NCBI GenBank assembly: GCA_903813345.2 | Contig: CAIIXF020000003.1 | Span: forward strand, 9,876,218-9,940,217 | From: Owenia fusiformis | Taxonomy: Eukaryota; Annelida; Polychaeta; Sabellida; Oweniidae | Reading direction: 5' to 3' | Length of the DNA stretch: 64,000 bases | Shown here: positions 31,901 to 59,303 of the stretch, piece by piece | Position numbering within the stretch: position 1 is the stretch's first letter | How the letters are laid out: each line of letters starts with the position of its first letter | The notes under the pieces: model-generated | Database searches by the model: none | Seen by the model: only the letters and a program-made list of their open reading frames with translations | Told to the model about the DNA's origin: nothing | Position numbers and translations under genes: made by a program

Positions 31901-34900
31901 GCAAAACAACATACTTTACAGCATATAAGCCAACAAAACATACTTAACAGCATATTAGCCAACACAACATACTTTACAACATATTAGCTAACAAAACAAA
32001 TTTTCAACATATTAGCCAACATAACATACTTTACAGCATATTAGCCAACACAACATATTTTACAACATATTAGCCAACAAAATACAATTTTCAACATATT
32101 AGCCAACACAATATATTTTACAACAAATTAGCCAACAAAACGAACAAAACATATTCTACAACATATGAGCCAACACAACATATTTTACAACATACTAGTA
32201 TAAGCCAAGAAAACGAACAAAACATATTCTACAACATATTAGCCAACACAACATATTTTACAACATATTAGCCAACACAACATATTTCACAAAACAGCCA
32301 ACACAGCATACTCTACAGCATATTAGCAAACACAACATATTTTACAACATATTAGCCAACACAACATATTCTTCAACATATTAGACAACACAACATATTT
32401 CATAAAACAGCCAACACAGCATACTCTACAGCATATTAGCAAACACAACATATTTTACAACATATTAGCCAACACAACATATTCTTCAACATATTAGACA
32501 ACACAACATATTTCATAAAACAGCCAACACAGCGTACTCTACAGCATATTAGCAAACACAACATATTTTACAACATTTTAGCCAACACAACATATTTTAC
32601 AACATATTAACCAACACAAAATATTTTGCAGCATATTAGCCAATACAACATACTTTACAGCATATTAGCCAATACAACATACTTTACAGCATATTAGCCA
32701 ACACAACATACATTACAGTGTTTTAGCCAAAACATCATATTTTACAACATATCATGCTGGCAATTAACATACTAGTGAAAGTCCTAGTGAAACACATAGT
32801 GATGCATCTGCATGATCTCTTATAATTAACAAGGTGTAAATAAACTGTAAAATATGTTTTGATCCACCATAACTTTCTATAATATGTTTGTACTACTCTG
32901 TTTAAATACAGGTTAATAAATTAATAAGTAAATTAATAATAATTAGCCAAGAAAACCTATTTTTCAATGCTTTACAACATATTTTTTAGCCAACAACACA
33001 TTTCACAATATATTTAAATACCAGACACATTAGTGTCTTATGCCTTGGTCATATTTGCTCCGATTTTCACTACGGCGCCCGGCCGATTGAGTATTTTTTC
33101 AGAAATGTATTCAATTTTGAACAAAATACTCAATCGGCCGGGCGTCGGCCGATAAATCGCAGCAAATGTGACAGGCATTCTTAAGTTTTACAGGTTATAT
33201 GCATACAGATATAATTCGCCTTTTCAGATAAAAAAACAATAATGCCTGGGTCACATTTGCTCCGATCCATCGGCCGGCGCCCGGCCGGTTGAGTGTTTTG
33301 TTCAATATTGTATTCAATTTTGAACAAAATACTCAATCGGCCAGGCGCCTTGTGAAAATCGGAGCAAATGTGACCCAGGCATAATTAATGCATCTGTTTA
33401 GTTGAATGAATCGACCACAATGCATCAAGCCTTTGTATTGAATTGTTTTCATACATTGCAAAATCACTCTTCTATACCTTGCAATTTGGTGTTCATGAGC
33501 AACCCATTTTGCTAATTTGTAATGATGATGTTATTTGTTTTTGTTTTTCTATTCCTTATTAATGGTTGATTGGATGACTGTTAGATGTTAATAAGGTACT
33601 TTCAAAAATATACTAAGCAATACAATTAGACAAACAGGGTATCTTATGCATTTCTAGGGGTTACGAATAGTATAGTGAAAATATGTTCTACGAATCACCT
33701 AAACGATACGAAATCACTAAAATAATACACTTCATGAAACATTTTGCAAGGGTTAAGTTGGGAAATTATTAATTTCAATATTTCAATCTCTAGAGTCAAG
33801 TTGTCACCTTGACAACACCTCAGCGAGTGACCTTGGGTGGGTTATTGGTTATATAACACAGTGCAGTTATATGGAATGGCTAGAATCGGGCACACCTTGC
33901 CTAGCTACATGTATACATGGATTGTATAACGATCTGTTCCCGGCTGTTTTTCTTACTTGTATGTGCCAGGTTATTTATCGTCAAAGTGCTTCATACCTTG
34001 TTCAAATGACACATAAATATTTTTTCCATCAATGATCATATCAAATTTCGAAATGATGTTCACATACGTAGAAAATTGGTCTATTGTTTTTGTTATATTC
34101 CCTGGAATTATATTAATGGTGTCCCTTATAATCCCAAAAAGGCACAAATGTATAACAAAAGTAGAATGGACCTTATTCGAAATTAATATCTTGCATGTTG
34201 TGAAATCTCTTGTCGAGTTGAGACGATGGCGCTAATTTGTTGATTAAACACGGCTAACTTTTGAACATTAATGTCACTGGTATTACACTCGATTACGCTG
34301 CTACCGGGTAACAAGGCACCGTTCCGGTCGGAAAGTTCGGTAATAATTTTAATTTTCCTTGATTGCCCGAGAAATAGCATAAACCATCCCAATCTTTTCG
34401 GGACAACCATGAATAAGCATCATATTCATATGTTCCTGGAAATTCTAGTTATTTCGCTTAAAATAACGTAGGATGACGGAATCTTCAATTTAATTCATAA
34501 CTTTTGTTACGTAAACGGATCGAACTACAAAGAGAGTTTCCGTAATAATAGTGAGGTATTAAAACGATGATTATATTGTCGTCTGAACTATTTGTTCGTA
34601 AACGTGTAGATTTTCTAGATCTTAAACATATGAAAGTAATTTGTGAAAAATTATTGCGAGAACTCTGTAAACATCATCGTGGGGAGAAAACATTTGCGAG
34701 GAAAATATGAATTATTCGCGCGGTTTTTGATGGCGATATCGTGTCATATAAGAGGTTAGGCCTTGGATTGATATTTCTAGGCAACCCTAGTTCTCCTAAA
34801 CTATCAATATATATCAGTAAGGGTTAACAAATTGCAAACTCTACTAACAAACTAACAAAAATCCCCCTCCGCACCACGTTCTTCTTTTTTTGTTTTAGCG

Positions 34901-37900
34901 ATTCAAGATGCACATACTGCAAATCGGCCGAAGTTTTGTCAACTGTGGAAGGAGTCTTCGAATGACGTCACTGTGACCAAGATGAGAATAGAGCGAAACC
35001 AAGGAGGCCATGGAAATAGGTATTTGTGGAACTAGATCTTATCCTGAATATCCGTCACATTTAATCTATATTGGAACGCATTTGCTTCTTATAAATATCC
35101 CGCATTTTCGCAATACGCGTTCATTTTGGCACCGAGTGATTCAAATTCATTCTTCTTGCATCTAACACCCCATTTACCGAGTTGACTCTAACAGTATCAG
35201 TCTTACAGATAGTGCGGAATATACATTAATAATCTTATGCGATAATACAAAATTCCGATTATATTATGAATTCACTTAATTATATATTCCCTAAAGTGAA
35301 ACTATAACTTATTTTTATGCGCATGTATAAGCAAACTAAAATATTTGCATATGAATTATTATTTCATGGTGAAATTAATTTAAACTTGAGAGGGGTTTCT
35401 CAAGACAGCCTGGGTCATCACCAGGTCAACATATGTTTCCTGCATGCTTCAACTGTTATGTAAAATTCTTGTGTCTGGCTGTTATCTGCTTATTCTGCTA
35501 CTGTCCTTGCAGCGGACAACATGTGCTAGTTATAATGCTATATTGCTTGTAATTTTTTGGCTCTTTTTGCCTTGGATAAATAACCAAATAATGGAATTTG
35601 AAGACTTCCTGGAGAAGTGGTGCCTATCACCAGACACTATCAAGACACTCAGTGACAATGGATTTACCAACATGATGTCACTAAAAAGTATGGCATTGCC
35701 CGATGACCTGAAGGCAATGAAAATCAAGCCAATAGGACAATATAGACTGTTGGAAAAAGGCTTGACCGTCCTGCAAGCTGGACAAGGGCCCGAGACCCCT
35801 AACTTCGCTGCAGTCGATGAACAAACGTCCTCATCAGCTGAAGAAACCCCCCAGCAGAGACAGGCAGAGGGTGATCGTTCGTTATCCGAAGTTTTACAGC
35901 AACTTGGGATAGGTACGCAGGATAACACAACTCAATCTGCCAGTGCAAGCGCTAACAAAGGTGAGCAATATTTAAAGATAGTAGACTTTGTGCGTCCATC
36001 TTTGCGTTCCCTTACAAACAAAGACAAAGTCATGGCCGCTGACGGGGAGACCAGCTTGGTAATGCGCACGTCAAGGAAACCTCGACTAGAATCTGTATCT
36101 ATCGAACAGTGGGGGCAGGCGAGTAACAGAATTTTGACTCATCTAATATCCACCAATACTTCATTTGAGGTAGCAGCCTACTTGGAATACCAAATTAACA
36201 TCTATGAACTGGCAGAATGCTATACCTGGCAAAGTGTCATTTTGTATGACGATGAATATAGATATCGCCAGGCTTTAAAAGGATTTGCATGGGGGACAGA
36301 TATCCCTCATATCTGTAGTACCCATCTGAAACAGAAGGTAACAACAAACAGGAGGGCTGAAAATAATGTAACAGCACCTAACGGCAATGTTATTTGTCGT
36401 AACTACAACAAAGGAATCTGCAGGTTTGAAAACTGCAGATTCGAGCATCTATGCCTGCAATGTTTCAAGAAACACCCCCAGAAGGAACACCAGGGAAACT
36501 AAAACACCCCTCTCACGGACCTATTAACTCACCCCTCAATTATAGTAAATGGGAAAATGAACTATCTGAAGATAATGACAAGGACTTTATTTTAAATGGT
36601 ATTTATAATGGATTTCGAATAATTGATGAGGATGCCTTCCCAACCTCCGCAGAAATGAACAATTATAATTCAGCTATTTGTTCTGAGAACAAGTGGAAAG
36701 TGGAAAATCAAATAATAAAAGAAATTGACAATAATCGTTATATCAAAGTGGATTATAAACCAACGATCATTAGTGCATTAGGGTCAGTGCCAAAACCCAA
36801 TTCGGAGGCTATACGATTAATACATGACTGCAGTCAACCGCAAGGTAGTGCTGTCAACGATTATGCTACAATTAAATCTTATAGGTATACCACAATTAAT
36901 GATGCAACAAAGGCTCTACATCCTGGATACTGGATGTGCAAAGTCGATTTAAGTGAAGCGTATCGATACGTTCCTATACACCCCCAAGACTATCAATATG
37001 CTGGATTAAAATGGAAGTTCAACAATAGTAAAAAATATGATTACATCATTGATACAAGACTTATGTTTGGGGCTCGCAAATCGCCCGAAATATTCCATCG
37101 CATCACTCAAAGTATAAAACGCGTAATGCAGAGAAAGTACAACTGCAGTGACATCTATGTTTACTTGGATGATTTTTTGATAATTGCACAAACCCAAGAG
37201 GAATGCATGGAGCATTTAAATTCATTAATTAGACTGCTTCGTGACCTCGGCTTTGGAATTAGTTGGGGTAAAGTGGATGGTCCGTCTCAGGTATTGACAT
37301 TTCTAGGGGTGGAACTAGACTCGCAAAAAATGAAAATGCTGTTACCACAACAAAAACTGCTAGACTTTAAAAATTTGCTAAATCAATATCTGCTACTTAA
37401 ACGAGCTACACGTACCCAGCTAGAATCGCTAGCTGGGAAGCTAAGTTGGGCTGCACAAGTCATCCGTGGCGGTAGAATTTACACCAGGAGAGTTCTTGAT
37501 GCTATATGCAAGCTAAAACGAAATAAACATAAATACAAAATCGGGAAAGAATTCAAAGAGGATATTAAGTGGTGGTTGAACTGTATTGACTCATTCAATG
37601 GCATAGCGCTTATATTGGACAGTAAGCCTGTTGTTGACATTGAAGTTGATGCTTCAAATACAGCATCTGGCCTCTTTTATCAAGGAGACTGGATGTATGT
37701 AAATTTTGCTATGGACGTACCTCAATACAAAGACTATCATATTAATTATAAAGAAGTCCTCTCAGTATATTTTGCCATCCTTAGATGGAAACATGTACTG
37801 GTGAATAAACGCATTCTGATTCATACTGACTCTACAGTGGCCATGACTATTGTTAATCGGGGTACAACAAAACATCCTGGTATAATGGAAATATTGAGAC

Positions 37901-40900
37901 ATATGTTTTGGATATCTGTTCAGTATAACTTTGACCTTCGAGCCGTTCATGTCCCAGGGAAACTCAATATTCTACCAGATGTAATTTCCAGACTAAATGA
38001 GCCCAAAAACTTTCTAACATTAGAGGCTATTTTGTATCCAGGAATTTTCCCTAATTCAGAGTTATCTGAAATGATTCTTCATCACCATATGACTCTAAAG
38101 TCCATGCTTTTTCTTCTTCCTCAGATCAAAGAGTGGCACAGCTGGAAAATAGCCTGGACAGGAAAATCATAGAGCTTAGGGGATATACCTACACAGACAA
38201 CACCAAGCGCACTTATGCAGCACATCTTGCTAAATATCTAGACTTCTGCAAGTTAATGGGATATTCACCAGCACCTGTTTCACAGTCTAATTTGCTTCGT
38301 TATGTGGCATTTCTTAGTGACCACATTAGACCATCATCAATTAAATTATATCTTAACATTATCAGGATATTACACTTAGAAATGGGTTTACCAAATCCAC
38401 TTCAAAGCAACTGGCCCTTAGACACACTGCTTATGGGCATATCAAAGAAACTTGGAGTACCCCCTAGGCAGAAGGCTGCCATTACGCCACGGCACTTGCT
38501 GGACATTAAGAAACAATTAGATCTTTCTAACTATGTTCATATTATCTTTTGGAGTTTATGTCTCACAGCCTTCTTTGGTCTCTTTAGGAAATCAAATTTA
38601 GTTCCTAATGTGTTTAACCCAGAGAAACATCTTACAATGTCTGATATTACAATGAACAGCTGGGGAATTTTGCTTCAAGTAAAGTGGTCAAAAACACTAC
38701 AATGTAAAGAGAGGGTCCTGCCAGTCCCCTTCTTAGCTTTGCCAAACCACCCCCTGTGCCCTGTTACAGCTTTAAAAGCAACCCTAGCTGTAACAAGCCC
38801 AAAGAATGTCACAGATCCACTCTTCACCCTCCCAGCTCCACATCAGAAGAAACCTTTCCCACCTTCACTATTTACTTCAATGCTACAGCTTTACCTCAAG
38901 AAAGCAGGTTACTGTAGCACAGAATTTTCTACCCATAGTTTTCGTAGGGGTGGGGCGTCCTGGGGTCTTCAATGCAACTTACCTAGTGATATTATCCAAC
39001 TGATGGGGGACTGGCGTTCTTCTGCTTATCAAAGGTATTTGGAGATGCCACTTCAAAACAGGCTTCAAGTTATTAAAGATTTCACAGCTAATCTACCATT
39101 AAATTGAAGTAGGAACTTTTATGACCAACATTAGGGGGAAGTGATCTTGATCTTTTGACTTTGATTGTTATAATAATTACTTCCTATATAATACTTCTAC
39201 ACTCTACTTTAAAATGTTTGGCCCATCTGGGGTAATTGATTCATTTCATTCTATGAATCAATTTTCCTGTAATTTTGTTGTTATTAGTTAGCCTAGAGTA
39301 GAACAATAAATTACATAATGCCAAACATTTTTCTCTAGTTGTGTGCGCATTCTTTTATAAGTCACATGAGTTTAATTATTATTTCATGGTGAAATTAATT
39401 TAAACTTGAGAGGGGTTTCTCAAGACAGCCTGGGTCATCACCAGGTCAACATATGTTTCCTGCATGCTTCAACTGTTATGTAAAATTCTTGTGTCTGGCT
39501 GTTATCTGCTTATTCTGCTACTGTCCTTGCAGCGGACAACATGTGCTAGTTATAATGCTATATTGCTTGTAATTTTTTGGCTCCCTCCCCCCCACCACGG
39601 TGCCATAATTCATACATGGTTTGTTTTTTCGATGCAATGTAACCTCTCCGGATGGTGGGGGTAATTGATTCATTTCATTCTATGAATCAATTTTCCTGTA
39701 ATTTTGTTGTTATTAGTTAGCCTAGAGTAGAACAATAAATTACATAATGCCAAACATTTTTCTCTAGTTGTGTGCGCATTCTTTTATAAGTCACATGAGT
39801 TTAAAGAGGGACTTATACAGAACTCGACATGTTTTATTGATCAATTCGAACATATTTTTCACCAAAAACGAACAGCATACTTGGCTTAGCTTTTGCGTCT
39901 ATTATAAACGTATTTGACTTTATGTTTTATATAGACTTTAAAACGTTTAAACATATAAGGGATTATGAACACTCTAAATTGAGTTATATATTGTGCTTAT
40001 ATATGATAATGTTTTTCATAATTAATTGTAATAAATTCATAATTAATTAACCTTACGTTTTCCAGGTACAATGGGGCATTTTTGACTTGCCCTCTCCAAG
40101 AAGACGGTGGTGTCTACAGCGCCGTGTCCATAACGTTTGAAGAATGTGAACGTGCGCAGAATATATTTTCAATTCAATACCCACAAATTGACGACATATC
40201 AGACGAACCAGCCAATGATTTTAACGTTTGTCTGGAAGCCCCTTTAAATTTAAACTACAGTCGCTATTATGAATTAATAGAATGGATTGAAATGAATAGA
40301 ATACTAGGGGCCAGTCATTTCACTATTTATAACCATACAAGTTCTAATCTAGTCAAAACAGTTTTAGAATCGTATATTAAGGATGGTATCGTCACGCTCG
40401 TACAGTGGCCGATACCGCTCCGAGTCCACATCTGGCCTCAGCCGAAGTCATACGTAGAAGAGATACATTATTATGGTCAAACTGCCATGATTAATGATTG
40501 TCTCTACCGGATGCGACACTCCGCGAAGTATCTGGTATTTGTGGACTTGGACGAGTTTATTATTCCAAAGAAGACTCAAACTTGGATTGAGTTTATCAAA
40601 GAAAATGATCCAAAGAGACGAATGGGTGGTTATGTATTTAGAAACGTCTTCTTCCGGAAGGAATGGGATTCTGGATCAGCAATATCAAATGATCAAACTG
40701 TACAAAAGTTAAAACTAGTGACGCTTATGAAAACTAAAAAGGAGACCAAAATCTGGCCGCCATACCAAAGATCAAAACTTATTATAGATCCTTTGAAAAT
40801 CAAAGAAATGGGTGCTCATCAAATATGGGGTGAGAAATCTGGGGCAGATTTAGTAGTTGATCCAAAAGATGGACTTCTGCATCATTATAGGAATTGGGAA

Positions 40901-41008
40901 AATCCGTCTGATCTTCCCGGCCCAGTCGATGAAACAATGCTTAAGTATAAAGACGACCTCATTGATGCTGTGATAAAGAGATATGCAAAATTGGGCTTAA
41001 ATTATTAA
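28934..41008 (+). CDS. GT92-family glycosyltransferase, type II membrane protein
   Basis: Predicted Golgi glycosyltransferase of the GT92 (DUF23) family, 520 residues. Exons 28934-29432, 34899-35019 and 40066-41008 join at phases 1 and 2. A short cytosolic N-terminus and one membrane span (about residues 10-30) are followed by a stem with several N-glycosylation sites. The catalytic domain starts near residue 150 (RLIFGFGAYYD) and includes YNGAFLTCPL, NHTSSN and VDLDEF (Asp-Leu-Asp at 367-369, the likely metal/sugar-nucleotide DxD). Exon 2 was found by phase and by a CQLW segment that fits the family. Introns are 5.5 and 5.0 kb and full of repeats, including a complete Ngaro-like element. C. 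elegans GT92 members are galactosyltransferases; the acceptor here is unknown. Confidence 0.88.
29784..30000 (+). repeat. Single mariner-like terminal end
   Basis: The TACAGGGTGGTCCAAAAATA start resembles the termini of the mariner-type MITE at 62117-62741, but no matching opposite end is seen nearby. It is a probable truncated copy in GT92 intron 1. Confidence 0.4.
31291..32755 (+). repeat. 29-bp tandem satellite, about 50 units
   Basis: Units vary around ttttacaacatattag followed by ccaacacaacata. Units show point changes and small indels. Near the right side a 113-base block of four units repeats three times (starts at about 32285, 32398, 32511), a higher-order repeat. It lies in GT92 intron 1. 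Confidence 0.9.
33041..33177. mobile_element. Palindromic MITE copy 1
   Basis: Starts tgccttggtcatatttgctc and ends with the near-complement; the inside holds a second inverted pair around actcaatcggccggg. Flanks are tta and ttc, an imperfect target duplication. It is about 137 bases and related to the next copy 65 bases downstream. Confidence 0.7.
33243..33381. mobile_element. Palindromic MITE copy 2, TAA target duplication
   Basis: The TIR tgcctgggtcacatttgctc is matched at the far end, bordered by TAA at 33240-33242 and 33382-33384. A 3-bp TWA duplication suggests the PIF/Harbinger group. It is better preserved than copy 1. Confidence 0.75.
35354..35573 (+). repeat. A1 split repeat of Ngaro-like element
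   Basis: 220-base left terminal repeat, repeated as A2 at 39374-39593. The region probably carries the promoter. An open frame runs through it into ORF1, so the true ORF1 start may be the downstream Met at 35591. Confidence 0.85.
35444..36502 (+). CDS. Ngaro-like ORF1, Gag-like protein with zinc-binding end
   Basis: Likely nucleocapsid-type protein. From the Met at 35591 it begins MEFEDFLEKWCLSPDTIKTL, a helical segment of about 65 residues that looks like a SAM domain. A Gln/Ser-rich linker follows, then a helical middle. The C-terminus has a Cys/His cluster (CRNYNKGICRFENCRFEHLC), CCCH-like, that should bind RNA. The upstream Met at 35444 would add a hydrophobic stretch encoded by the A1 repeat, which is probably not translated. 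It overlaps the next ORF by 52 bases in another frame. Confidence 0.75.
   Translation: MLQLLCKILVSGCYLLILLLSLQRTTCASYNAILLVIFWLFLPWINNQIMEFEDFLEKWCLSPDTIKTLSDNGFTNMMSLKSMALPDDLKAMKIKPIGQYRLLEKGLTVLQAGQGPETPNFAAVDEQTSSSAEETPQQRQAEGDRSLSEVLQQLGIGTQDNTTQSASASANKGEQYLKIVDFVRPSLRSLTNKDKVMAADGETSLVMRTSRKPRLESVSIEQWGQASNRILTHLISTNTSFEVAAYLEYQINIYELAECYTWQSVILYDDEYRYRQALKGFAWGTDIPHICSTHLKQKVTTNRRAENNVTAPNGNVICRNYNKGICRFENCRFEHLCLQCFKKHPQKEHQGN
36451..38172 (+). CDS. Ngaro-like reverse transcriptase/RNase H
   Basis: Copies the element RNA. The DIRS-type RT spans about residues 100-300: VPKPN, KVDLSEAYRYVPI, FGARKSPEIF and the catalytic YLDD at 37162-37173, then FLGVELD. RNase H follows with IEVDASNTASG, NYKEVLSVYFAI, IHTDSTVAM and VPGKLNILPDVISR, keeping the acidic residues. 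There is no integrase or protease, as expected for the order. It overlaps ORF1 and ORF3, so a re-initiation or frameshift mechanism is likely. Confidence 0.93.
   Translation: MPAMFQETPPEGTPGKLKHPSHGPINSPLNYSKWENELSEDNDKDFILNGIYNGFRIIDEDAFPTSAEMNNYNSAICSENKWKVENQIIKEIDNNRYIKVDYKPTIISALGSVPKPNSEAIRLIHDCSQPQGSAVNDYATIKSYRYTTINDATKALHPGYWMCKVDLSEAYRYVPIHPQDYQYAGLKWKFNNSKKYDYIIDTRLMFGARKSPEIFHRITQSIKRVMQRKYNCSDIYVYLDDFLIIAQTQEECMEHLNSLIRLLRDLGFGISWGKVDGPSQVLTFLGVELDSQKMKMLLPQQKLLDFKNLLNQYLLLKRATRTQLESLAGKLSWAAQVIRGGRIYTRRVLDAICKLKRNKHKYKIGKEFKEDIKWWLNCIDSFNGIALILDSKPVVDIEVDASNTASGLFYQGDWMYVNFAMDVPQYKDYHINYKEVLSVYFAILRWKHVLVNKRILIHTDSTVAMTIVNRGTTKHPGIMEILRHMFWISVQYNFDLRAVHVPGKLNILPDVISRLNEPKNFLTLEAILYPGIFPNSELSEMILHHHMTLKSMLFLLPQIKEWHSWKIAWTGKS
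38133..39107 (+). CDS. Ngaro-like tyrosine recombinase
   Basis: Integrates the circular DNA copy. 324 residues. The N-terminal core-binding part (TKRTYAAHLAKYLDFC) is followed by the catalytic part: Arg152 in GLFRKSN, a Lys in the KWSKT turn, His268-x-x-Arg271 in HSFRRGG, Trp294 in GDWRSSAYQRYL and the probable nucleophile Tyr302. All key positions are filled, so the enzyme looks functional. It overlaps the RT ORF by 40 bases. Confidence 0.92.
   Translation: MAQLENSLDRKIIELRGYTYTDNTKRTYAAHLAKYLDFCKLMGYSPAPVSQSNLLRYVAFLSDHIRPSSIKLYLNIIRILHLEMGLPNPLQSNWPLDTLLMGISKKLGVPPRQKAAITPRHLLDIKKQLDLSNYVHIIFWSLCLTAFFGLFRKSNLVPNVFNPEKHLTMSDITMNSWGILLQVKWSKTLQCKERVLPVPFLALPNHPLCPVTALKATLAVTSPKNVTDPLFTLPAPHQKKPFPPSLFTSMLQLYLKKAGYCSTEFSTHSFRRGGASWGLQCNLPSDIIQLMGDWRSSAYQRYLEMPLQNRLQVIKDFTANLPLN
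39229..39803 (+). repeat. B1-A2-B2 repeat block of Ngaro-like element
   Basis: B1 (39229-39374, 146 bases) adjoins A2 (39374-39593); a 64-base unique piece follows, then B2 (39658-39803). An ORF at 39464-39664 is only the repeat copy of the ORF1 leader. Confidence 0.88.
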
Positions 41009-45159: not shown

Positions 45160-46236
45160 TCAGGTAAGTTTGATTCCAAGATGCTTCAAGTGACGGTAAA
45201 ATCTTTGACTTATAAATTTGTAAAAATCGTAGTCATCCGCTAGATATTCCTTCATTACAGCAATTGTTTTATTACTTGGTCTCGCCTTCCTAAGTGAACG
45301 ATTCTTTACCTGTACAACGCGATGGGCGTTGTATGCCCTTGACAATTCATCTGTAAACCTCGGTAAGACCCTTTCCATTGCTCTAACGGTTTCGTTAAAG
45401 TGCTCAGTCAGACCAACGAATGCATAATATTTTTCAATGTTTGATTTTGCATTGGCGCTTGAAATCAGCGAACGGTTGGTGCTGTACTTCCCTGAAAACC
45501 AAAATGAGTAATATGAATGATAAACTTTGAAACGGAGGCAACCTTTGGCTGGTTTTTCTTTCAAACATGCAACGGTTTGTTTAATATTCTTTCCCGAACA
45601 CCCAGTCTTCTTTTTCCACATTTGGTAACATTCCTCAAATGTTTGGTTTGTTTCACCCTCAGTAAAGTTCAGACGTTTTATATGAATTTCGGAAGACCTA
45701 TAGTAATAAAAGTTAGAAATCCATCTTTCTACCGGATCTCGTACTATGTCTATAAACAATGGCTGTTTGAAGCCAAGTTCGATGAAATCGAAAAAGCTGA
45801 AATGGCCCACAACTATTGTGGGTCTTTTATCTTGAAGTTGAGTCAATGCATAATTTTGCTTTTCTGCAACTGTGGTCAATTCGCTTATTTCTGGTACGGG
45901 GAGTATATGAGTCAAATTGTATTTTCCGCTATATTCGCAAGCAGTTGTCATAACTGCAAGCAGCGTAGTGCTTCCACATTTAGAAGCTTTGCTGTACATT
46001 AGGAGATTTTCATTGCGATCATTCTTCCTAAATCCCTTTAAATGTAGATTAACTTTGCTACGTGGCTCAATATAACTACTTAATCCTTTATTTTTAACAA
46101 TGTAAACACGTTTGACGGGGACTGGCCTGTTTACTTCTTTTGCATGTCCAGTCCACTGAAAACTCATAAGAGCAATTGTTGTAATAATAGAAACAATACA
46201 GAGACATATTACTCGTATTTTGCTCTGAGAAATCAT
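45160..46236 (-). CDS. Uronyl/heparan 2-O-sulfotransferase-like enzyme, single exon
   Basis: Golgi sulfotransferase of the Sulfotransfer_2 family, transferring sulfate from PAPS to a glycosaminoglycan-type sugar; 358 residues. A short N-terminus and a membrane span at about 8-25 make it type II. The 5'-phosphosulfate loop is YSKASKCGSTTL (81-92), closer to the KCGS of uronyl 2-sulfotransferase than to the KTAS of heparan sulfate 2-O-sulfotransferase. A GHFSFFDF segment (144-151) matches the region of the catalytic His. The 3'-phosphate motif is IVRDPVERWIS (164-174). The reading frame has no intron, which may reflect a retrocopy or a naturally intronless lineage. The exact acceptor cannot be told. 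Confidence 0.88.
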   Translation of the reverse strand: MISQSKIRVICLCIVSIITTIALMSFQWTGHAKEVNRPVPVKRVYIVKNKGLSSYIEPRSKVNLHLKGFRKNDRNENLLMYSKASKCGSTTLLAVMTTACEYSGKYNLTHILPVPEISELTTVAEKQNYALTQLQDKRPTIVVGHFSFFDFIELGFKQPLFIDIVRDPVERWISNFYYYRSSEIHIKRLNFTEGETNQTFEECYQMWKKKTGCSGKNIKQTVACLKEKPAKGCLRFKVYHSYYSFWFSGKYSTNRSLISSANAKSNIEKYYAFVGLTEHFNETVRAMERVLPRFTDELSRAYNAHRVVQVKNRSLRKARPSNKTIAVMKEYLADDYDFYKFISQRFYRHLKHLGIKLT

Positions 46237-47647
46237 TGTTTACAAATCTCACCCGTCACAGTTTTAAAATATGGATATTTGCCGTTGATGTCCTTAATGT
46301 GTTCTAGAGTAGGAAACGCTTGTCGGTGTGACACCTTTATGTCTATAAAACAATTAAGTCCTGCACTGATCTTCCCGATTAGATTGTTATGTCGGTTGTG
46401 AGTGTTTTTCTCTCGTACCCCGAAGCGCAATACGTCAACTTTTTAAGGGATAGTTAGATGCAACAGCGCAGCAATGAATTCAAACCCGTCTGATTCAGCT
46501 CTTTCTTTCGCATGAATATTTTAAAGAAAAATCCAATGTATTGAAACCGCTTCTTTAATAACTTCTGAATTTTATATAAAGAAATTATACTGTACTGTGT
46601 CTCTATGTTCGTTGTACTCATTTCAATCATTCCGTTACATGTACATTTGGTCTTTGAGCTGTAATACACCGTTGCGCGCTAACTTTATGAGATTTGTATT
46701 ACGACCATTCATCTTGGACTGGATCAGATTAATTCTATTTAGTGTCTTAACCTGGATCTGAAAAGTTTATGGGCGTATTCCACCATTGCAATAAGATTTG
46801 AGTATTTTCCAATTTGCCATTGAACTCCCCTATCTTAAGTGCTATCAAATTTAAATGGATGGAGGTTTTCAAAATGATAGAAAGGCTTTGTAATTAAAAA
46901 CGTATTCCATGCCCAAGGAACTAATTGTTCAGAAACTGTACCTGTGTACTGTTTTTTAGAAAATTGTCCTGTATTCCAGGTAAATATACACTATTTGTAT
47001 ATTTATATGTGTATATATATATTCAATATAATGGAGATTTCGCTCATCAATGAAAGCATAACCTAGGTTTATGCGTATATCTATCTATACGTTATAAGTA
47101 TGAGCGAATTGAAATATGACGTTTCGCAAAAATATGTACGTTTAGAAATGTATAGTTTATTGCATATAATAAATATCTTGAATTAAACATCATAAAATAA
47201 TATTAAAACATCATTATAAATAGAAAACAAAGGTAAAATAAATTTGGTTAGAGCTGATCCAAATGACTTTAAATCATAATTATAAACGAAATACTATTAT
47301 TATACATAATATGAACGAACCCCTAGTATCTAAATTATAAAAATAATAAAATAATGATAATAAATGATAATTAATAAAATGATAAATACAATACTATAGG
47401 ATTAATGCATAACTTTATATAATTTAAAACAGAGCAAACATGGAATGTAATAAATAAATAAACTAATAAATAAATATATAGTCAAGATAAACACGTTTGC
47501 TTATAAGTAGCAATATTCTAAAATAGTTCGACCAATATGATCTACTAAATACTAAGTACTAAATAGTACCATTGAGTCCACTGCAGAATAATGATTTTGT
47601 CCATATTACCATGGAGTGTTTGGAAGAGATGACAAGTATTCTTCGTT
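46237..47647. other. Intergenic, very AT-rich
   Basis: Upstream of the sulfotransferase and downstream of the helical-protein gene. It holds long A/T runs with TAAATAAA words near 47450-47490 that could include a polyadenylation signal, but strand is not decided. Short ORFs here look random. Confidence 0.45.
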
Positions 47648-49530
47648 TTAAGAGGCGTTTTTCTTTGCCAATTCAAGAAACTCAAGTTTTTGGAAGTCAA
47701 ATAGATTCCCCATGTCTCTGAGTATGATGTAGTAAGCCACATTACGCTGAGCTTCGTTACCAAGGAGATCAATTATTGAATCTCTAATGCGACCCTCGTG
47801 ATTGAAATTGAAATCGTGGTTGACTCCGGTTGCAATCATTGTATGGTGAACGTTACAGAATACTCCACCATAAAAATATTTCTGTTCAAATTCTTTCATT
47901 TCATTGAGGAGGGACGCAGAGGTTTGTCCAATGAAGACGTCTTCCTCCTCCTCAATCATGTGTTTCAAGAAAACACTGACCTCGGCAAGTTCCTTTCTCG
48001 CTCTTCTTAATGAATCTTCATTCTGGAAAAGACAAAAATATATCCTCTAATAATTGTTTGATATTTTTTAATATGGTATGAGCGCTTTTAAAAAAAGATT
48101 GCTATATCCATATATAGATGTCACTAAGTCCTTATATGTAGCATTGACTATTGAACCAGTCTTCAGAATAGTGATCTGAATTAAATAATATTTGATTTAT
48201 TTGATTTGCAAATTGTAGTGTTGATAGACAAACAATTTGACACTCTGTATGATCATGATGTGAAGTGCATGGTAATCTCATATATTGAATGATTAAACAT
48301 ATTACTTACATGTGCCGTTTCCTTAGCTTTACTCAATGCTTCGCTGGTTGGCATATGGCTCAATTTAAGAGTTTTAATTTGCTCTATTTTACTTGTTGTA
48401 ATACGTCCTTTTAATACCTGAAATATAAATTTGGTTTGAAGAATATCATGTTAGCTTATCTTACGAATATGATAGTATGTCCCCCAAGATTATGAGCATG
48501 CAATATGTTATCCAAGAGATTTTTAAGATTATTTTATCCAGAGTTGAAAGAATGCCCAAACGATTATGAGAGTAATTAGTTGCTCAACAAGAGATAATGT
48601 TTGGTAGTTAGTTGGTTGTTAAAGTACAAAACAACTGTTAAGGGAATCATGATATTATATAACTTTGATCCTCTGCAGATAAAAAAGGCATATAAAATTA
48701 AACATACACCCACTAGGGTGTCATTATCACTTATATGTATATATGTTTATATGATTTTAATAAATAAAAAAAAACAAAAAAAACTTACAAGTAAATTTTG
48801 AATATCTTCAATACTTCGCTTGGCTCGAATTGCTGAATCCGAAACTTCTTTATAGTGAGTCGAATGCGTTCCGTCACCAGAAGTAACAGAAGCCCAGACA
48901 GCAGGCGTTGCGTCGCCGATGGACGAACCGTCCCCACAAGGGTTCTGCCAGGTAGGTGCGGTACCTACAACGGGCGCAGAGTTCACTTGGGCAGATAATA
49001 AAGTCATCAAGGTAATTACAGCCATCGTCGTTTCTGAAATAAGTAGATACGTATACATAGCATAATTAAATAATATAGATAATCTAATTAGGCCAGGTGT
49101 AAGCGATGGGTTAATGTATTTTTCCTGAATTCCCTTCTCAAATGATTATTTATGTGTAAATGGTTTTCAATGGGAGTAATGACTGCCATCTATGTTATGT
49201 ATTCAAAGTAATGTTTGTAGAATCATTGTCAGTTAAACAAAGTTTTTGAAAAAAAGAAAAATAAGCCATTCTATGCTGCACATTCTGTGAAAATTCCATT
49301 CGTACATTTTGAAAAAAAGAAATTAGAGAGATATTATGAGAACTTTATGATAACCCTTCGTACGTTGGTCAGTAATTAGAAACATAAATTTGCATCGAGC
49401 CGTCAACAAAGTAGCATTACTTAAGTCAAAATATTTAGAATTTAGAAACGACTGTTATCTGATACAAACAGAATGTCATTTTGACTTTATTAAACTATAG
49501 AATGACCTACTTACCTAGTGCCAATGCCAT
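47648..49530 (-). CDS. Small secreted all-helical protein, cytokine-like
   Basis: I do not recognise a named family. Four coding exons: 49530-49515, 49033-48789, 48417-48310 and 48022-47648 give 247 residues with phases 1, 0, 0. The start has A at -3 and G at +4. A signal peptide is predicted at about 1-25 (MAVITLMTLLSAQVNSA). The mature chain has a loop with one Cys (NPCGDG) and then four long predicted amphipathic helices, roughly HYKEVSDSAIRAKRSIEDIQNLL, SEALSKAKETAHNEDSLRRA onward, SASLLNEMKEFEQKYFYGGV onward (with the second Cys), and GRIRDSIIDLLGNEAQ to the end. A 16-nt first coding exon ending in phase 1, then phase 0 introns, is the usual pattern of class I helical cytokine genes (EPO, LIF, IL-6). 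The gene model is solid; cytokine identity is inference. Confidence 0.72.
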
Positions 49531-49575
49531 ATTGTTCTCACGATGTTTGTTCTAATATATAGATTGTATGTTTAG

Positions 49576-49581
49576 TTTATA
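49576..49581 (-). promoter_or_regulatory. Possible TATA box of the helical-protein gene
   Basis: TATAAA on the minus strand, 46 bases upstream of the ATG at 49530. A start site about 30 bases downstream would give a 5' UTR of roughly 20 bases. Such words are common in AT-rich DNA. Confidence 0.3.
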
Positions 49582-49599
49582 TGCCGGACTCAAAATACA

Positions 49600-50849
49600 A
49601 GTCGTGTAAATATAATCTATTAAGTCGTTTTCCCGTATCTGTAATCTGTATGATGCACTTTAATTTTTTTGCTATTGTGCAAGTCGTCTTGTTTCGTCTG
49701 TTATTGACATAGACGAATCAAACAACACTTATATAGTCTACAAACCATTACGAATCTTGGGAAATATTGCACAGGTTGTCCCGGTCAGTAATGAGTCATT
49801 CGACCAAAAAACAAATAAAACTCCGACAGTTCCCAGAATTCGATATATGAGAACGATAACTGTAATGAGCTGGATATATTACACGCCGGGTATTTAATTA
49901 ATGATGATTTCCTTCTAGTATTTTTATTTCCATGTTATTGGGTTTACTTCCTCATCGTTGTAGAAGTATTGTTAAGAAAAAATAACAGTAGATGACATGT
50001 AAATCTAGGCTACAGCTAATTTTAGAATTGTTTGACTTTATATTCATAAAAACATTGGTCATATTGTAAACAATATATTACTTTTATCGTGTTAAAAGCT
50101 AACATTTAGAAGGGAAAGCATTTTAGAATGAAAATTATCATGTATACATAATTTAGAGACCTAGGGGGGGGGGGGGGGGGGCGTTACTCTTGAAATAACC
50201 TTATATGAAAGATTACTATTTTAACCGTCTTTAATATAAATGTCTGAATATCTCTTGTAATGCCTGGTTAAACAATGTCTATTAGCACGTAAATTTATGT
50301 TAGACTCGATGAGGAAAGGGAAGCAAAGGAAGTGTCTTATGCTCTAGCTTTTATTGCAACTTCCTCCCAACATAACACTATGTACAGGGTAGACCAAAAG
50401 TATGTTTTAACAAAACAAATATAAATATTTGTATGATTAAATTTAACACCACTTGTAATACTTACAATTCAAATGAATCTGATATTGGATGGTCTAACAA
50501 ATTGCCTTCTATTCATTTATCTTTACTAATTGCGTGTTGTGACGATAATTTATTTTTCAGGAAGATATCTTGGAGAATAGTTGACTCTCTTATTATATTT
50601 CTGCATTTATCATGTATTATAGATAGCAGAATAATCATATAGTCAGTACTAACGACAAATTATTTTTTATAAGAAATATTCAATTTTTAATCTTTGAATT
50701 AATCGTTTTGCACAGTTAATATTTGGAAAATGTACATTAAAAGAAACAGATGGAATAAGTTTCTGGTTATAAGATATTTTATTAATTATTATGTATCACA
50801 AGAAATATTCGGCAAAGCTCACGACAAACTAGACATAAGTGATAAATAA
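49600..50849. other. Upstream region with an 18-G run
   Basis: Holds a run of 18 G at 50164-50181. A TACAGGGTAGACCAAAAGTA sequence near 50383 looks like a lone mariner-type end. TTCCCAGAA at 49830-49838 fits the TTCNNNGAA STAT consensus about 300 bases upstream of the helical-protein start, though such a match can arise by chance. Confidence 0.4.
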
Positions 50850-51275
50850 AGTAAAAACAACGAATAGATAAAAAAGGGAATCAAACAGGATTCAAACCTT
50901 CTTCCCACTACTAGGACAGATGTTCACTTTTAAAATTTGATTGTGAACTGACAATTCACTCATATTAGTAAGTAATACAACGATCTGATAAAAAGACGGG
51001 AATTAAACAGGATCCAAACCTTCTTCCCAATACTACGACAGATGTTGACTTTTAAACTCTGATTGTGAACTGACAATTCACTCATATCAGTAAGTAATAC
51101 AACGATCTGATAAAAAGACGAGAATCAAACAGGATCCAAACCTTTTTCCCACTACTAGGATAGATGTTCAGTTTAAAACTTTGACTGTGAACTGACAATT
51201 CACTCATATCAGTAAGTAAAAACAACGATCTGATAAAAAGACGGGAATCAAACGGGATCCAAACCTTCTTTAATT
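50850..51275 (+). repeat. 121-bp tandem repeat, about 3.4 units
   Basis: Units begin at about 50867, 50987, 51109 and 51232 with gataaaaagacgggaatcaa and share the phrase gaactgacaattcactcata. Unit lengths are 120-123. No coding meaning. A run of 14 C follows at 51374-51387. Confidence 0.85.
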
Positions 51276-53042: not shown

Positions 53043-55069
53043 CTGCCAGAATTGCAAAATAAGGAAAAATCAAAATAAAAACTCACAAAAGTTTATTCGG
53101 AAGTGCTCATTGACGTTTACATTTAACTTTCAATGTTGTTGTAACAACGTTGTGCAATATCCTCTAATTTAATACTTTTTTTACAACTTGTGTCAGTCTG
53201 ACCCACAATAAGGGAAACATAGACATAAAGACTACATGCTAGCTGTCAGTTGTCGGTATTGTTTATATGACATCCTACGACAAACGTCCTTCTTCAATAT
53301 GTTTCTATTTGTTTATTGAAATCACTTGACGCCACTTAAATAAAAAAAACAGTTTTAAAGTACACGACTGTACATGGTACTATAATGACCGTGATTTGAA
53401 AAGTTAAAACAGTGTAACTTGTCTATGGTGGCCCGCTTGGTTTGGCTCGCGATCGATTGGTTATTTCTGGATTGAAAAACATCGATACGACCGCCGTCAA
53501 GGTGAATGAATAATCCAAGTCCAAATGGTTTGACAATCCTGATGAAAGCGACTTATTTGACAGGATAAAAATGTGAGTTTCATAAAACTAATTGTAGTCA
53601 ATATACCTATAAGACGATAGAATGATTTCCTAAATAAAGACGGTAGCGCAGGTACCTCTTACACAATAGGTCCCGGATTCGATCCCCGGTTCAGGCAAGA
53701 CTAAATTTGCTTGTTTGCGTGAAGTACTTCAGGGTGTTTGACTGAGTGGTCCGCAACTCGTACAAAAGGCTGTGGTGTGTCTATTAGTATAGTAGGAACA
53801 AGGGGTTCCCATGCACCCATAAGGTGTGAATAAGTTACATACATTTTTGTAATTCTTAGGGTGTATATTTAATGAATTCATTTGTTAACATTGCCAACTA
53901 ATGTCCCATAGTACTTTTATGGCGGCATTCAGTTACCATGGTTACGCATCTTTAGACATCTTACCTTGGTATCTAAAATCATTTGTAGCTCTGTCATTAT
54001 TTGGTCTATAGAAATGATATTGGTACCAAATTAAACCTCGTTAAATTTCCAATAAATTTCTGTTATTCAATTATGCAAATTATCTAATTTGCATAAATTA
54101 TGACGTCATCAATCTATTTTTGGTTCAGAATTTCCAACTATAGCAACGAATCTATTAGAACTGAGGCCGTTTGGCAAAATTTCTGAAAGGTTTTGTCCTT
54201 TATTCTATTAGTAGAAGGTGTAAGCAACATAAAAGTGAAAACAGATCCAAAATTGAATCAGTATTACGAAAGTTATGTAACTTTCGAGGCAGCTATCGTG
54301 AATGTCATTATTTGACAATAATACACATTACGTCTTACCTTGGGAGTCTTGAATCAATGTAGCTTCGCCATTATTTGGTCTATAGAGATGATATTGGTAT
54401 CTGATTAAACCTTACTAAATTTACTATATGGTTACAATATTAAGTTATGCAAATTAGCTTATTTGCATTAATTGTGACGTCATCAATCCATTTTTGGTTC
54501 AGAATATCCTAGTATAGCAACATATCTATTAGAACTGAGGCTGTATGACAGAATGTGTATAGTTTTGTCCCTTATTTGATGAGTGGAAGATATAAGCAAC
54601 ATTAAAGAGACAACAAATCTTCAAAATTGGATCAGAATTAACAAAATTATCCAGCTTTGGAGGCAGCTACTGTGAACGTCATTGTTTGACAATTATAAAA
54701 AGAATATTAAATTAACAAAAAAAGTAACAACCATAGTTGTTTCAATCTTATTGAGTAAAAATGTGCATGTATTGAACTGAACTAATAAGTATGTGGAAAG
54801 GTTACATGTAGTTTGACTATCATTCAGAGGGGTCAAAACGGTTATCTCGACCCTGTATATTAAAGATCCAATCTTATAATTTACCATGCACTTTCAATGA
54901 TTCATATAAATAGTATACCTATAGTCTGTTTTTCATCATATTCTTCATATTCTTGATTCTTAAAGCATCTGAAGTATATAGCATGATTAGAAGTGAAGAT
55001 GATTCATCATATGGTTTATGTAATATTTCTAAAATTTCAGATGCTATGGTAACATCACTTGATAATGAG

Positions 55070-55596
55070 GTTTTTACTAGGGGTGGGACGGATAACCAAA
55101 ATACCTCAAATCCACGGTTCATAGCTTTAGGATCGGTTTTCGGATCATGGCCCTACTTTCGGATCAGCTTTTCGGATCGTTTTCGGATTAATATTTCATT
55201 GGTCAAGTATCAATAAAACAGTTAAAAACACTGTTTTACAGCAACAGTTTTGATATTCCTAGTCCCTACCTTGTCTGTCTTGTCTGCTGCTAGCTCACTC
55301 GTTTACTAGATTCGTTTTGTATCCGCGTATTCGTATCCCTCGGTAATCAATCATGTGGTCCCTGGTACTATATTCTTTAGTCGTGTATTCTAAATAATAT
55401 GTATTGTTCATGAAATACTATAACATAAAATTCCATCTATAAAATATTGTTATAACGTCAGAGACAAAGCAGCTAATCATGTCAATCAATACAAATCCTT
55501 AAAATGAATGAACCGAACCGAAAAAACTGAACCGACGGCTGATGATCCGAAAAACCGAACCGAACCGAAATGAACCGTCCCATCCCTAGTTTTTAC
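55070..55596. mobile_element. hAT-type MITE inserted in the left arm
   Basis: Element 55078-55588 (511 bases), ends taggggtgggacgg and its near-complement, flanked by GTTTTTAC at 55070-55077 and 55589-55596. The right arm has a single uninterrupted copy of this site (complement at 57428-57435), which proves the boundaries. The inside is rich in CGGATC and AACCGA words; no ORF. Confidence 0.92.
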
Positions 55597-55770
55597 ATTT
55601 CACGTTCTTAATGAGTTAAAAGGAAGTTATCCTCCCTTTGCTTTAGAGATAAAAAGTTGCATGAATTTGTTTAGAAAAATTATAACTTAATTAATTTAAC
55701 CCCCCCCCCCTGACAGCCCCCATATTTGAAGATTTTGGTGAAACCTGGCAAAATACATTAATAATTAGGT

Positions 55771-57255
55771 TCCAGAAGCCCCCAGAAGCTATATGATAGC
55801 CCCCAGTGGCCCCAAGAATCTATACAGGGGCCCCAAGTGGCCCCCAGAAGCTATACTGTGCTCCCCAGAAGCTATATGTTGGCCCCCAGAAGCTGAATAG
55901 TGGCCCCCAGGAGCTATACGGTGGCTCCCAGAAGCTATACAGGAAACCCTGTGGCCCCAGGAGCTGTACGGTGGCGCCCAGAAGCTATACAGGGGCCCCC
56001 AGTGGCCCCAAAAAGCTATACGGTGGCCCCCACAAGCTATACGGGGGCCCCCACAAGCTATACTATGGCCCCCAGAAGCTATACAAGGGCCCCCAGAAAC
56101 TATACTATGGTCTCCAGAAGCTATATGGTGGCCCCCAGTGGCCCTCGGAAGCTATATGATGGCCCCCAGAAGCTAATTAGTGGCCCCCAGGAGCTATACG
56201 GTGGCTCCCAGAAGCTATACAGGGGACCCCAGTGGCCCCAAGAAGCTAAACGATGGCCCCCAGAAGCTATACAAGAGCCCCAAAAAGCTACATGATGGCC
56301 CCCAGAATCTATATGATGGCTCCCAGAAGATGTGAAGGGCCCCCAGTAGCCCCTAGAAGCTATACGGTGGCCCCCAGTGGCCCTCATGGGCTATATGATT
56401 GCCCCCAGAAGCTAAATAGTGACCCTCAGGAGCTATATGGTGGTTCCCAGAAGCTACAAAATGGCCCCCAGAAGCTACAAAATGGCCCCCAGAATCTATA
56501 TGGGGCCCCCGATGGCTCCCAGAAGCTATAAAGGGCCCCCTAGGAGCCCCTAGAAGCTATACGGTGGCCCCCAGTGGCCCCGAAAGCTATATAGTGGCCC
56601 CCAGAAGCTATACAGGGGCCCACAGTGGCTCCCAGAAGCTATATGTTGGCCCCCAGAAGCTATGCAAGGGCCTGCAGAAACTGTACTGTAGCCCCCAGAA
56701 GCTATACAGGAGCCCCCAGTGGCTCCCAGAAGCTATATGATGGCCCCCAGAAGCTATGCAAGGGCCCGCAGAAACTATACGGTAGCCCCCATAAGCTATA
56801 CGATGGCCTCCAGAAGCTATACAGTGTCCCCCAATGGGCCACCATATAGCTTTGGGGGCCACCATATAGCTTCTAGGGGCTACTGGGGGCCCTGTATAGC
56901 TTCTGGGAGCCATTGGGGGCCATCATATAGATTCTTGGGGCCACCATGTAGCTTCTGGGGGCTGCTGTATAGCTTCTGGGGGCCATCGTATAGCTTCTTG
57001 GGGCCACTGGGGTTCCCTGTATAGCTTCTGGGTGCCAACGTGTAGCTCCTGGGGGCCACTAATTAGCTTCTGGGGGCCATCATATAGCTTCTGAGGGCCA
57101 CTGGGGGCCACCATATAGCTTCTGGAGACCACAGTATAGTTTCTGTGGGCCCTTGTATAGCTTCTGGGGGCCATCGTATACCTTCTGGGGGCCACTTGGG
57201 GCCCCTGTATAGATTCTTGGGGCCACTGGGGGCCATCATATAGCTTCTGGGGGCT
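55771..57255. repeat. GC-rich tandem repeat with central inversion
   Basis: About 20-30-base units of the type gcccccagaagctatac run on the left and flip to ggccaccatatagcttctgg after about 56845. The left block is about 1.07 kb and the right about 0.41 kb, so the centre is asymmetric. Open frames across it (Gly/Pro/Tyr/Ser repeats in all frames) are by-products. Confidence 0.88.
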
Positions 57256-59303
57256 TCTGGAACATAATAATTAATGTATTTTGCCAGGTTTCACCAAAAT
57301 CTTCAAATATGGGGGCTGTCAGGAGGGGGTTAAATTAAGTTATAATTTTTTTAAACAAATTCATGTGACTATTTTCTCTAAAGCAAAGGGAGAATAACTT
57401 TCTTTTAACTCATTAAGAACGTGAAATGTAAAAACCTCATTATCAAGTGATGTTACCATAGCATCTGAAATGTTAAAAATATTACATAAACCATATGATG
57501 TATCATCTTCACTTCTAATCATGCTTTATACTTCAGATGCTTTAAGAATCGAGAATATGAAGAATATGATGAAAATCAGACTATATGTATACTATTTATA
57601 TGAATCATTGAAAGTGTATGGTAAATTATAAAATTGGATCTTTAATATACAGGGTCGAGATAACCGTTTTGACCCCTCTGAATGATAGTCAAACTACATG
57701 TAACCTTTCCACATACTTATTAGTTCAGTTCAATACATGCACATTTTTACTCAATAAGATTGAAACAACTATGGTTGTTACTTTTTTTGTTAATTTAATA
57801 TTCTTTTCATAATTGTCAAACAATGACGTTCACAGTAGCTGCCTCCAAAGATGGATAATTTTGTTAATTCTGATCCGATTTTGAAGATTTGTTGTCTCTT
57901 TAATGTTGCTTATATATTCCACTCATCAAATAAGGGACAAAACTATGCACACATTCTGTCATAAGGCCTCAGTTCTAATAGATATGTTACTATACTAGGA
58001 TATTCTGAACCAAAAATGGATTGATGACGTCACAATTAATGCAAATTAGCTAATTTGCATAACTTAATATTGTAACCATATAGTAAATTTAATAAGATTT
58101 AATCAGATACCAATATCATCTCTATAGACCAAATAATGGCGAAGCTACATTGATTCAAGACTCCCAAGGTAAGACGTAATATGTATTATTGTCAAATAAT
58201 GACATTCACGATAGCTGCCTCGAAAGTTACATAACTTTCGTAATACTGATTCAATTTTGAATCTGTTTTCACTTTTATGTTGCTTATACCTTGTACTAAT
58301 AGAAAAAAGGACAAAACCTTTCAGAAATTTTGCCATACGGCCTCAGTTCTAATAGATACATTGCTATAGTTGGAAATTATGAACCAAAAATAGATTGATG
58401 ACGTCATAATTTATGCAAATTAGATAATTTGCATAATTGAATATCAGAAATTTATTGGAATTTTAACGAGGTTCAATTTGGTACCAATATCATTTCTATA
58501 GACCAAATAATGACAGAGCTACAAATGATTTAAGATACCAAGGTGAGATGTCTAAAGATGCGTAACCATGGTAACTGAATGCCGCCATAAAAGTACTATG
58601 GGACATTAGTTGGCAATGTTAACAAATGAATTCATTAAATAGACACCCTAGGGATTACAAAAATGTATGTAACTTATTCACACCTTATGGGTGCATGGGA
58701 ACCCCTTGTTCCTACTATACTATATGTATAAGTGCACATAAAAGAACACAGGGCTCCTTCAAGGAGGGGTTTCTGGGTCTATCTTCCATGTTAATTACGT
58801 AAATTACGACCGTATATATACGGGACATACCCAAGAGGTATTGCTCATCTTCATTGGTGGTAAACAAAAAAAATACAATACAATAAGACGATAGAATGAT
58901 TTCCTAAATAAAGAGGCCAGGTTAAATCAACTTGAATCAACATAGATTGTTAAGCTCATTATTGTTAAAGCGATAACAGTCAGTTCGGGTCACATGTTAT
59001 AAATAATCACAATTTCTTGTACACGAAATTGAACAGCACGACACTGCAGCTATATCAAGAGCACATATATTGACCCCAACAGTAGGGTTTTGCCAGTAGG
59101 GTTTTGCTATATCCAGTTAGTACTGAACTACAACCATATTGACGAAACAGCTATAATCACGTAAGTTATTAGTAGGCTTTCTGATCGACGGTCTATAGGG
59201 TCTTTAGATTATGAACATTCATGTATCAAGCATTTGGGCCTACTAGCCAAATTTATGCAGAAAACTCGTAATATATGAAATAAGAGTCAATAATAGTGTT
59301 TAT

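Follow-up and report, generated by a model that had tools for sequence, protein, structure and literature searches.

The gene at positions 47648-49530 of the 64,000-nucleotide stretch of DNA analysed here (the window) raises the question of whether its small product is a helical cytokine, as the original prediction proposed in assigning it to class I, or a secreted protein of another kind. Our best single guess, a tentative one, is a secreted helical cytokine-like ligand of class I or class II. The two main rival readings, a furin-cut precursor and a secreted helical protein of some other kind, jointly carry more probability.

The gene model and its surroundings

Judged from the sequence, the span 47648-49530 holds a real spliced gene on the minus strand for a small, apparently secreted protein. 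Its four exons occupy exactly the span that the original prediction had given, and their lengths (16, 245, 108 and 375 nt) join to a coding sequence of 744 nt and 247 residues, as had also been foreseen, with zero stops and zero frame breaks. The proposed exon layout was recovered as well, with a 16-nt first coding exon that ends in phase 1 and intron phases of 1, 0 and 0 (Table 1).

Table 1. Features of the candidate gene and its flanks, in window coordinates
Feature	Coordinates	Strand	Description
Second TATA-like motif TATATAAG	begins 49735	-	motif match only
TATAAA motif	49576..49581	-	precedes the ATG of exon 1 by ~50 nt; motif match only
Exon 1, first coding 16 nt	49515..49530	-	codes for MALAL plus one base of codon 6; phase 1, with a GTAAGT donor
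Intron 1, 481 nt, phase 1	49034..49514	-	GTAAGT...TTTCAG, G+C 0.29
Exon 2	48789..49033	-	rest of putative signal peptide; Gly/Ser/Thr/Pro-rich linker with Cys38; RAKR at 75-78; first part of putative helix A; phase 0 after Leu87
Intron 2, 371 nt, phase 0	48418..48788	-	GTAAGT...TTTCAG, G+C 0.28
Exon 3	48310..48417	-	residues 88-123, comprising the last part of putative helix A and the putative A-B loop; phase 0 after His123
Intron 3, 287 nt, phase 0	48023..48309	-	GTAAGT...TTCCAG, G+C 0.27
Exon 4 and stop codon	47648..48022	-	residues 124-247; contains Cys179 and the three putative helices B-D
AATAAA polyadenylation-type signal	47156..47161	-	~490 nt beyond the stop codon; motif match only

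The splice signals argue for this model. All three donors read GTAAGT, and the span contains no further copy of that hexamer; its minus-strand count (n = 15 per 64 kb) would give 0.44 copies in 1883 nt, compared with the three observed. The acceptors of introns 1, 2 and 3 (TATTTCAG, TATTTCAG and TTTTCCAG) are pyrimidine-rich. The G+C content of exons 1 to 4 (0.50, 0.48, 0.35 and 0.39) exceeds that of the introns. With a codon score trained on four family-supported ORFs of the window, the frames in use scored +21.0 for exon 2 (free of stops), +7.8 for exon 3 and +26.3 for exon 4, and the three introns were negative in each of their nine sense frames. However, every sense frame of the exons was positive, three of nine antisense intron frames were positive, and an antisense frame of exon 2 that carries three stops reached 21.5, matching the sense value. 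Since antisense and off-frame readings also score positive, part of the codon-score signal reflects base composition. The window contains no second copy of the gene, the best other tblastn match having E = 2.5.

The AATAAA downstream of the stop codon is the sole AATAAA or ATTAAA in 47101-47648. Upstream, the region 49531-50531 was scanned for promoter motifs, and it holds a GAS-type TTCN3GAA at 49830, a TTCN4GAA at 50468 and an AP-1-type TGASTCA at 49792, with no TTCN2GAA and no kappa-B consensus. The three matches were set aside as evidence, the numbers expected per kb being 0.45, 0.34 and 0.19, respectively. Rfam gave no match in the window at gathering thresholds.

Two neighbours of the gene are sugar-acting by family match: one at 40043-41008 on the plus strand matches glycosyltransferase family 92 (E = 2e-45), and one at 45160-46239 on the minus strand is a Gal-3-O-sulfotransferase/Sulfotransfer_2-like ORF (E = 1.3e-06 and 3.8e-06). 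The window also encodes a P450 and a trypsin-domain protein. Along with the presence of introns, these four gene products point to an animal, with a mollusc as no more than a guess. The repeats of the window include, some 1.3 kb upstream of the candidate gene, a tandem array at 50867-51270 in which a 122-nt unit recurs 3.3 times with 90% matches, and a satellite-like array at 31296-32752 (29-nt unit, 50.7 copies). A palindrome of ~5 kb at 53785-58722 has outer arms at 53785-54558/57949-58722 (774 nt) and inner arms at 54554-55077/57428-57951 (524 nt), each pair 97% complementary, and a central array of ~21-nt units whose orientation also flips near 56850; it could be a foldback element or have arisen as an artefact of assembly. 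On the plus strand, 247-2480 holds non-LTR retrotransposon-like ORFs, of which 657-2480 matches endonuclease and reverse transcriptase models, and at 36430-39104 an ORF with reverse transcriptase and RNase H overlaps one with weak, below-cut-off tyrosine recombinase (Phage_integrase) matches, which we take to be a DIRS-type retrotransposon.

Helical character of the predicted protein

The N-terminus is hydrophobic over its first ~20 residues (Kyte-Doolittle means up to 2.1), and we regard it as a putative signal peptide. It is followed by a Gly/Ser/Thr-rich linker of 41 residues (25-65) that holds Cys38 and consists of Gly and Pro to 24%. The remaining 182 residues (66-247) contain one proline and 5% Gly+Pro; assuming the usual proline content of 4.7%, so low a count has P = 0.0016. 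This contrast between a Gly/Pro-rich linker and a proline-poor remainder is the best evidence for helix, and the chain after residue 65 is therefore probably mostly alpha-helical.

The original prediction had gone further in reading four long amphipathic helices from the mature chain. As a set, these do not rise above chance: the mean helical moment of residues 66-247 is 0.241, compared with 0.214 +- 0.027 in shuffles, 79 of 500 of which reach the observed value. By segment, residues 66-87 gave p = 0.020 (uncorrected, the best of ten) and the other nine gave p values from 0.11 to 0.98; an earlier scan of five segments on another scale had yielded 0.076 to 0.53. A heptad spacing runs through Y66, V69, A73, A76, I80, I83 and L87.

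AlphaFold models made without relatives had confidence too low to use, both for exon 4 alone (pLDDT 43.8; helices at 125-153, 159-174, 177-188, 201-209 and 213-246) and for residues 25-87 (pLDDT 54.1; strands at 50-56 and 62-68, helix at 71-84). Helix limits picked after the fact from these low-confidence models give a tentative division into A (~66-92), B (124-153), C (159-188) and D (213-246), and on those limits the loops would follow a long-short-long pattern of 31 (A-B), 5 (B-C) and 24 (C-D) residues. An up-up-down-down bundle needs long A-B and C-D loops and a short B-C loop. One intron then falls late in putative helix A and another just before putative helix B, the 36-codon exon between them corresponding to the A-B loop.

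The two cysteines on which a LIF-like pairing had been proposed are present, as Cys38 and Cys179; the helix that was to surround the latter is not borne out. Cys179 follows directly on Gly175-Gly176, and windows starting at 166, 169 and 172 have no helical periodicity (p 0.57-0.82). Moreover, a furin-type motif absent from the original prediction, R-A-K-R at 75-78 followed by Ser, lies inside putative helix A; among 20,000 shuffled versions of the protein, 3.45% contain a motif of this type. A cut there, if used, would sever putative helix A and part Cys38 from Cys179 unless a disulfide held them together, and the motif would probably be hidden if residues 66-92 form a helix. Because the motif lies between the two cysteines and a helix at Cys179 lacks support, we consider a LIF-like Cys38-Cys179 disulfide doubtful.

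Relatives, exon layout and competing readings

Similarity to a named cytokine had not been visible to the original prediction, and our searches agree with it, as Pfam, PDB and NCBIfam gave no significant match. With matches admitted up to E = 10, Pfam returned no cytokine family, and its sole match, DUF6062 (E = 0.062), lies below that family's cut-off and was dismissed as chance; PDB returned three chance-level matches (best E = 0.3), none of them a cytokine, and NCBIfam zero matches. Among viral contigs, the exon 4 query gave 10 pattern matches and the spliced protein 7; among prokaryote genome contigs, the numbers were 290 and 41; none was confirmed in either collection. Since these collections consist of viruses and prokaryotes, the negative results say little about animals. 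A literature search found no class I helical cytokine described for a mollusc, which is no proof of absence, and the terms cytokine, furin, four-helix and helical are all absent from a paper on molluscan prohormones (PMC6425005). Helical cytokines without detectable sequence similarity to one another are described in excerpts of PMC2654155, and the missing matches therefore count for little and are no refutation.

The exon layout was a second argument of the original prediction. The phases 1, 0 and 0 are found if Met1 is the start, and the layout is nonspecific. In genes with signal peptides, phase-1 introns are commonest and peak near the cleavage site, at about residue 20 (PMC1626468, in part); this peak explains the phase-1 intron here only partly because that intron lies in codon 6. 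In the class II genes for interferon-lambda-2/3, the first coding exon likewise covers just four residues and ends in phase 1, and the later introns are in phase 0 (PMC2654155, in the same excerpts); the layout thus does not single out class I. Features of this sort have led to a real cytokine, interferon-upsilon having been picked out as a multi-exon gene with phase-0 introns whose product has a signal peptide and predicted helices (PMC8863823, in part). They also give many false positives, since in a threading survey ~400 human proteins scored like interferon-lambda and only ~13% of these were known helical cytokines (excerpts of PMC2654155).

Overall, the anatomy of the gene and its product is compatible with a helical cytokine, and each specific argument is weak. 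The low proline content, the tentative loop lengths, the intron places and the moment of residues 66-87 speak for the cytokine reading. Against it stand the lack of a cytokine-family match in the libraries searched, the overall moment that shuffles often reach, the furin-type motif within putative helix A, and a low-confidence strand (62-68) that overlaps the start of that helix. If the reading is right, the proline-poor remainder would fold as a four-helix bundle, and the protein would be released into the body fluid, where it could bridge two receptor chains and thereby switch on JAK-STAT signalling. The most specific form of this reading, in which the protein is the first recognised member of an invertebrate class I-type cytokine family with vertebrate-like introns and the ligand of a gp130/Domeless-like receptor without a known partner in its lineage, is improbable.

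One rival is a secreted all-helical protein of another kind, such as a lipid carrier, a reproductive protein, an immune effector or a matrix component, that evolves fast and is restricted to its lineage; this is possible, if somewhat unlikely. The lack of a significant match in Pfam, PDB and NCBIfam is consistent with such a protein, its size, signal peptide and low proline content are common to many kinds of secreted helical protein, and the layout is nonspecific (PMC1626468 and PMC2654155, in part). However, positive evidence for any one kind was lacking, and cytokines are the somewhat closer fit to the tentative loops and intron positions.

A border between a Gly/Pro-rich linker and a proline-poor chain is a common site of propeptide cutting, whereas convertase motifs that lie within stable helices usually escape it. 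The RAKR motif lies near such a border and is followed by Ser, and its low frequency in shuffles adds to the case for a furin-type precursor of a non-cytokine hormone, growth factor or effector, cut after RAKR. Its products would be a 169-residue helical chain with one cysteine, or residues 25-74 as a propeptide or second product. This alternative, too, is possible, if somewhat unlikely: residues 66-87, which contain the motif, scored best for helical moment among the ten segments, and neither Pfam nor PDB gave a family match to a known hormone or growth factor.

The weakest alternative lies in the gene model itself. The original prediction had not mentioned a second in-frame ATG, Met9 in exon 2, whose context (ACGATGG) is as good as that of Met1 (AATATGG) and from which nearly the same signal peptide could be made; exon 1 would then be noncoding, leaving two coding introns of phases 0 and 0. 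The exon 1 ATG is the first one downstream of both TATA-like motifs apart from one at 49710, which sits downstream of the farther motif (49735). Met1 is favoured because the stretch from the nearer TATA-type motif (49581) down to it is free of other ATGs. A model that is partly wrong, through a Met9 start, a missed exon or decay of the copy, is very unlikely: Met9 is followed by the complete hydrophobic stretch, but exon 1 has a perfect donor in the right place as well as its good start context, a scanning ribosome would reach it first whichever TATA-like motif is used, provided that the 49710 ATG is not part of the transcript, and the 744 nt are intact.

Comparison with known cytokines

A class II helical cytokine has an all-helical fold of six helices and acts through a class II receptor. 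The candidate shares with interferon-lambda and interferon-upsilon a signal-peptide-like start, probably several helices and phase-0 introns (PMC2654155 and PMC8863823, in part). In contrast to the candidate, class II genes as a rule have five coding exons, not counting a short initial one where present.

Drosophila Unpaired (Upd) can be likened to the candidate by description and is longer. The Upd proteins, ligands of Domeless, are secreted invertebrate ligands of JAK-STAT signalling (PMC13203501 and PMC8226699, in part). The oyster protein CgIFNLP, for which a class II helical cytokine-like structure and antiviral signalling are described (PMC9756803 and PMC8218723, in part), is likewise compared by description; it is a protein of ~15 kDa with an IFN domain, whereas the product here has 247 residues. 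A 2026 survey reports that molluscs have an IL6R-like receptor along with JAK and STAT, finds IL6 in vertebrates only and suggests other ligands (PMC13203501). If the cytokine reading is true and the window comes from such an animal, the protein, as a helical ligand whose exon layout resembles that of vertebrates, would offer a concrete candidate, and the cytokine-receptor pair would date to before vertebrates. If the protein is no cytokine, it would merely add to the known range of secreted proteins confined to one lineage and would be of modest interest.

In vertebrate long-chain class I genes, the first intron is in phase 1 and those that follow are in phase 0. The intron places near the end of helix A and the start of helix B are similar in IL-6 and G-CSF. 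The candidate resembles IL-6, G-CSF, LIF and EPO in its small size, hydrophobic N-terminus and proline-poor, probably helical chain, and it resembles IL-6 and G-CSF in placing its 36-codon exon at the putative A-B loop. It differs from these class I cytokines in having four coding exons rather than five, the number described for G-CSF of carp and human (PMC6389648, in part), and in that putative helices C and D are not separated by an intron. Additionally, its 41-residue linker, its furin-type motif and its possession of only two cysteines set it apart from IL-6, G-CSF, LIF and EPO.
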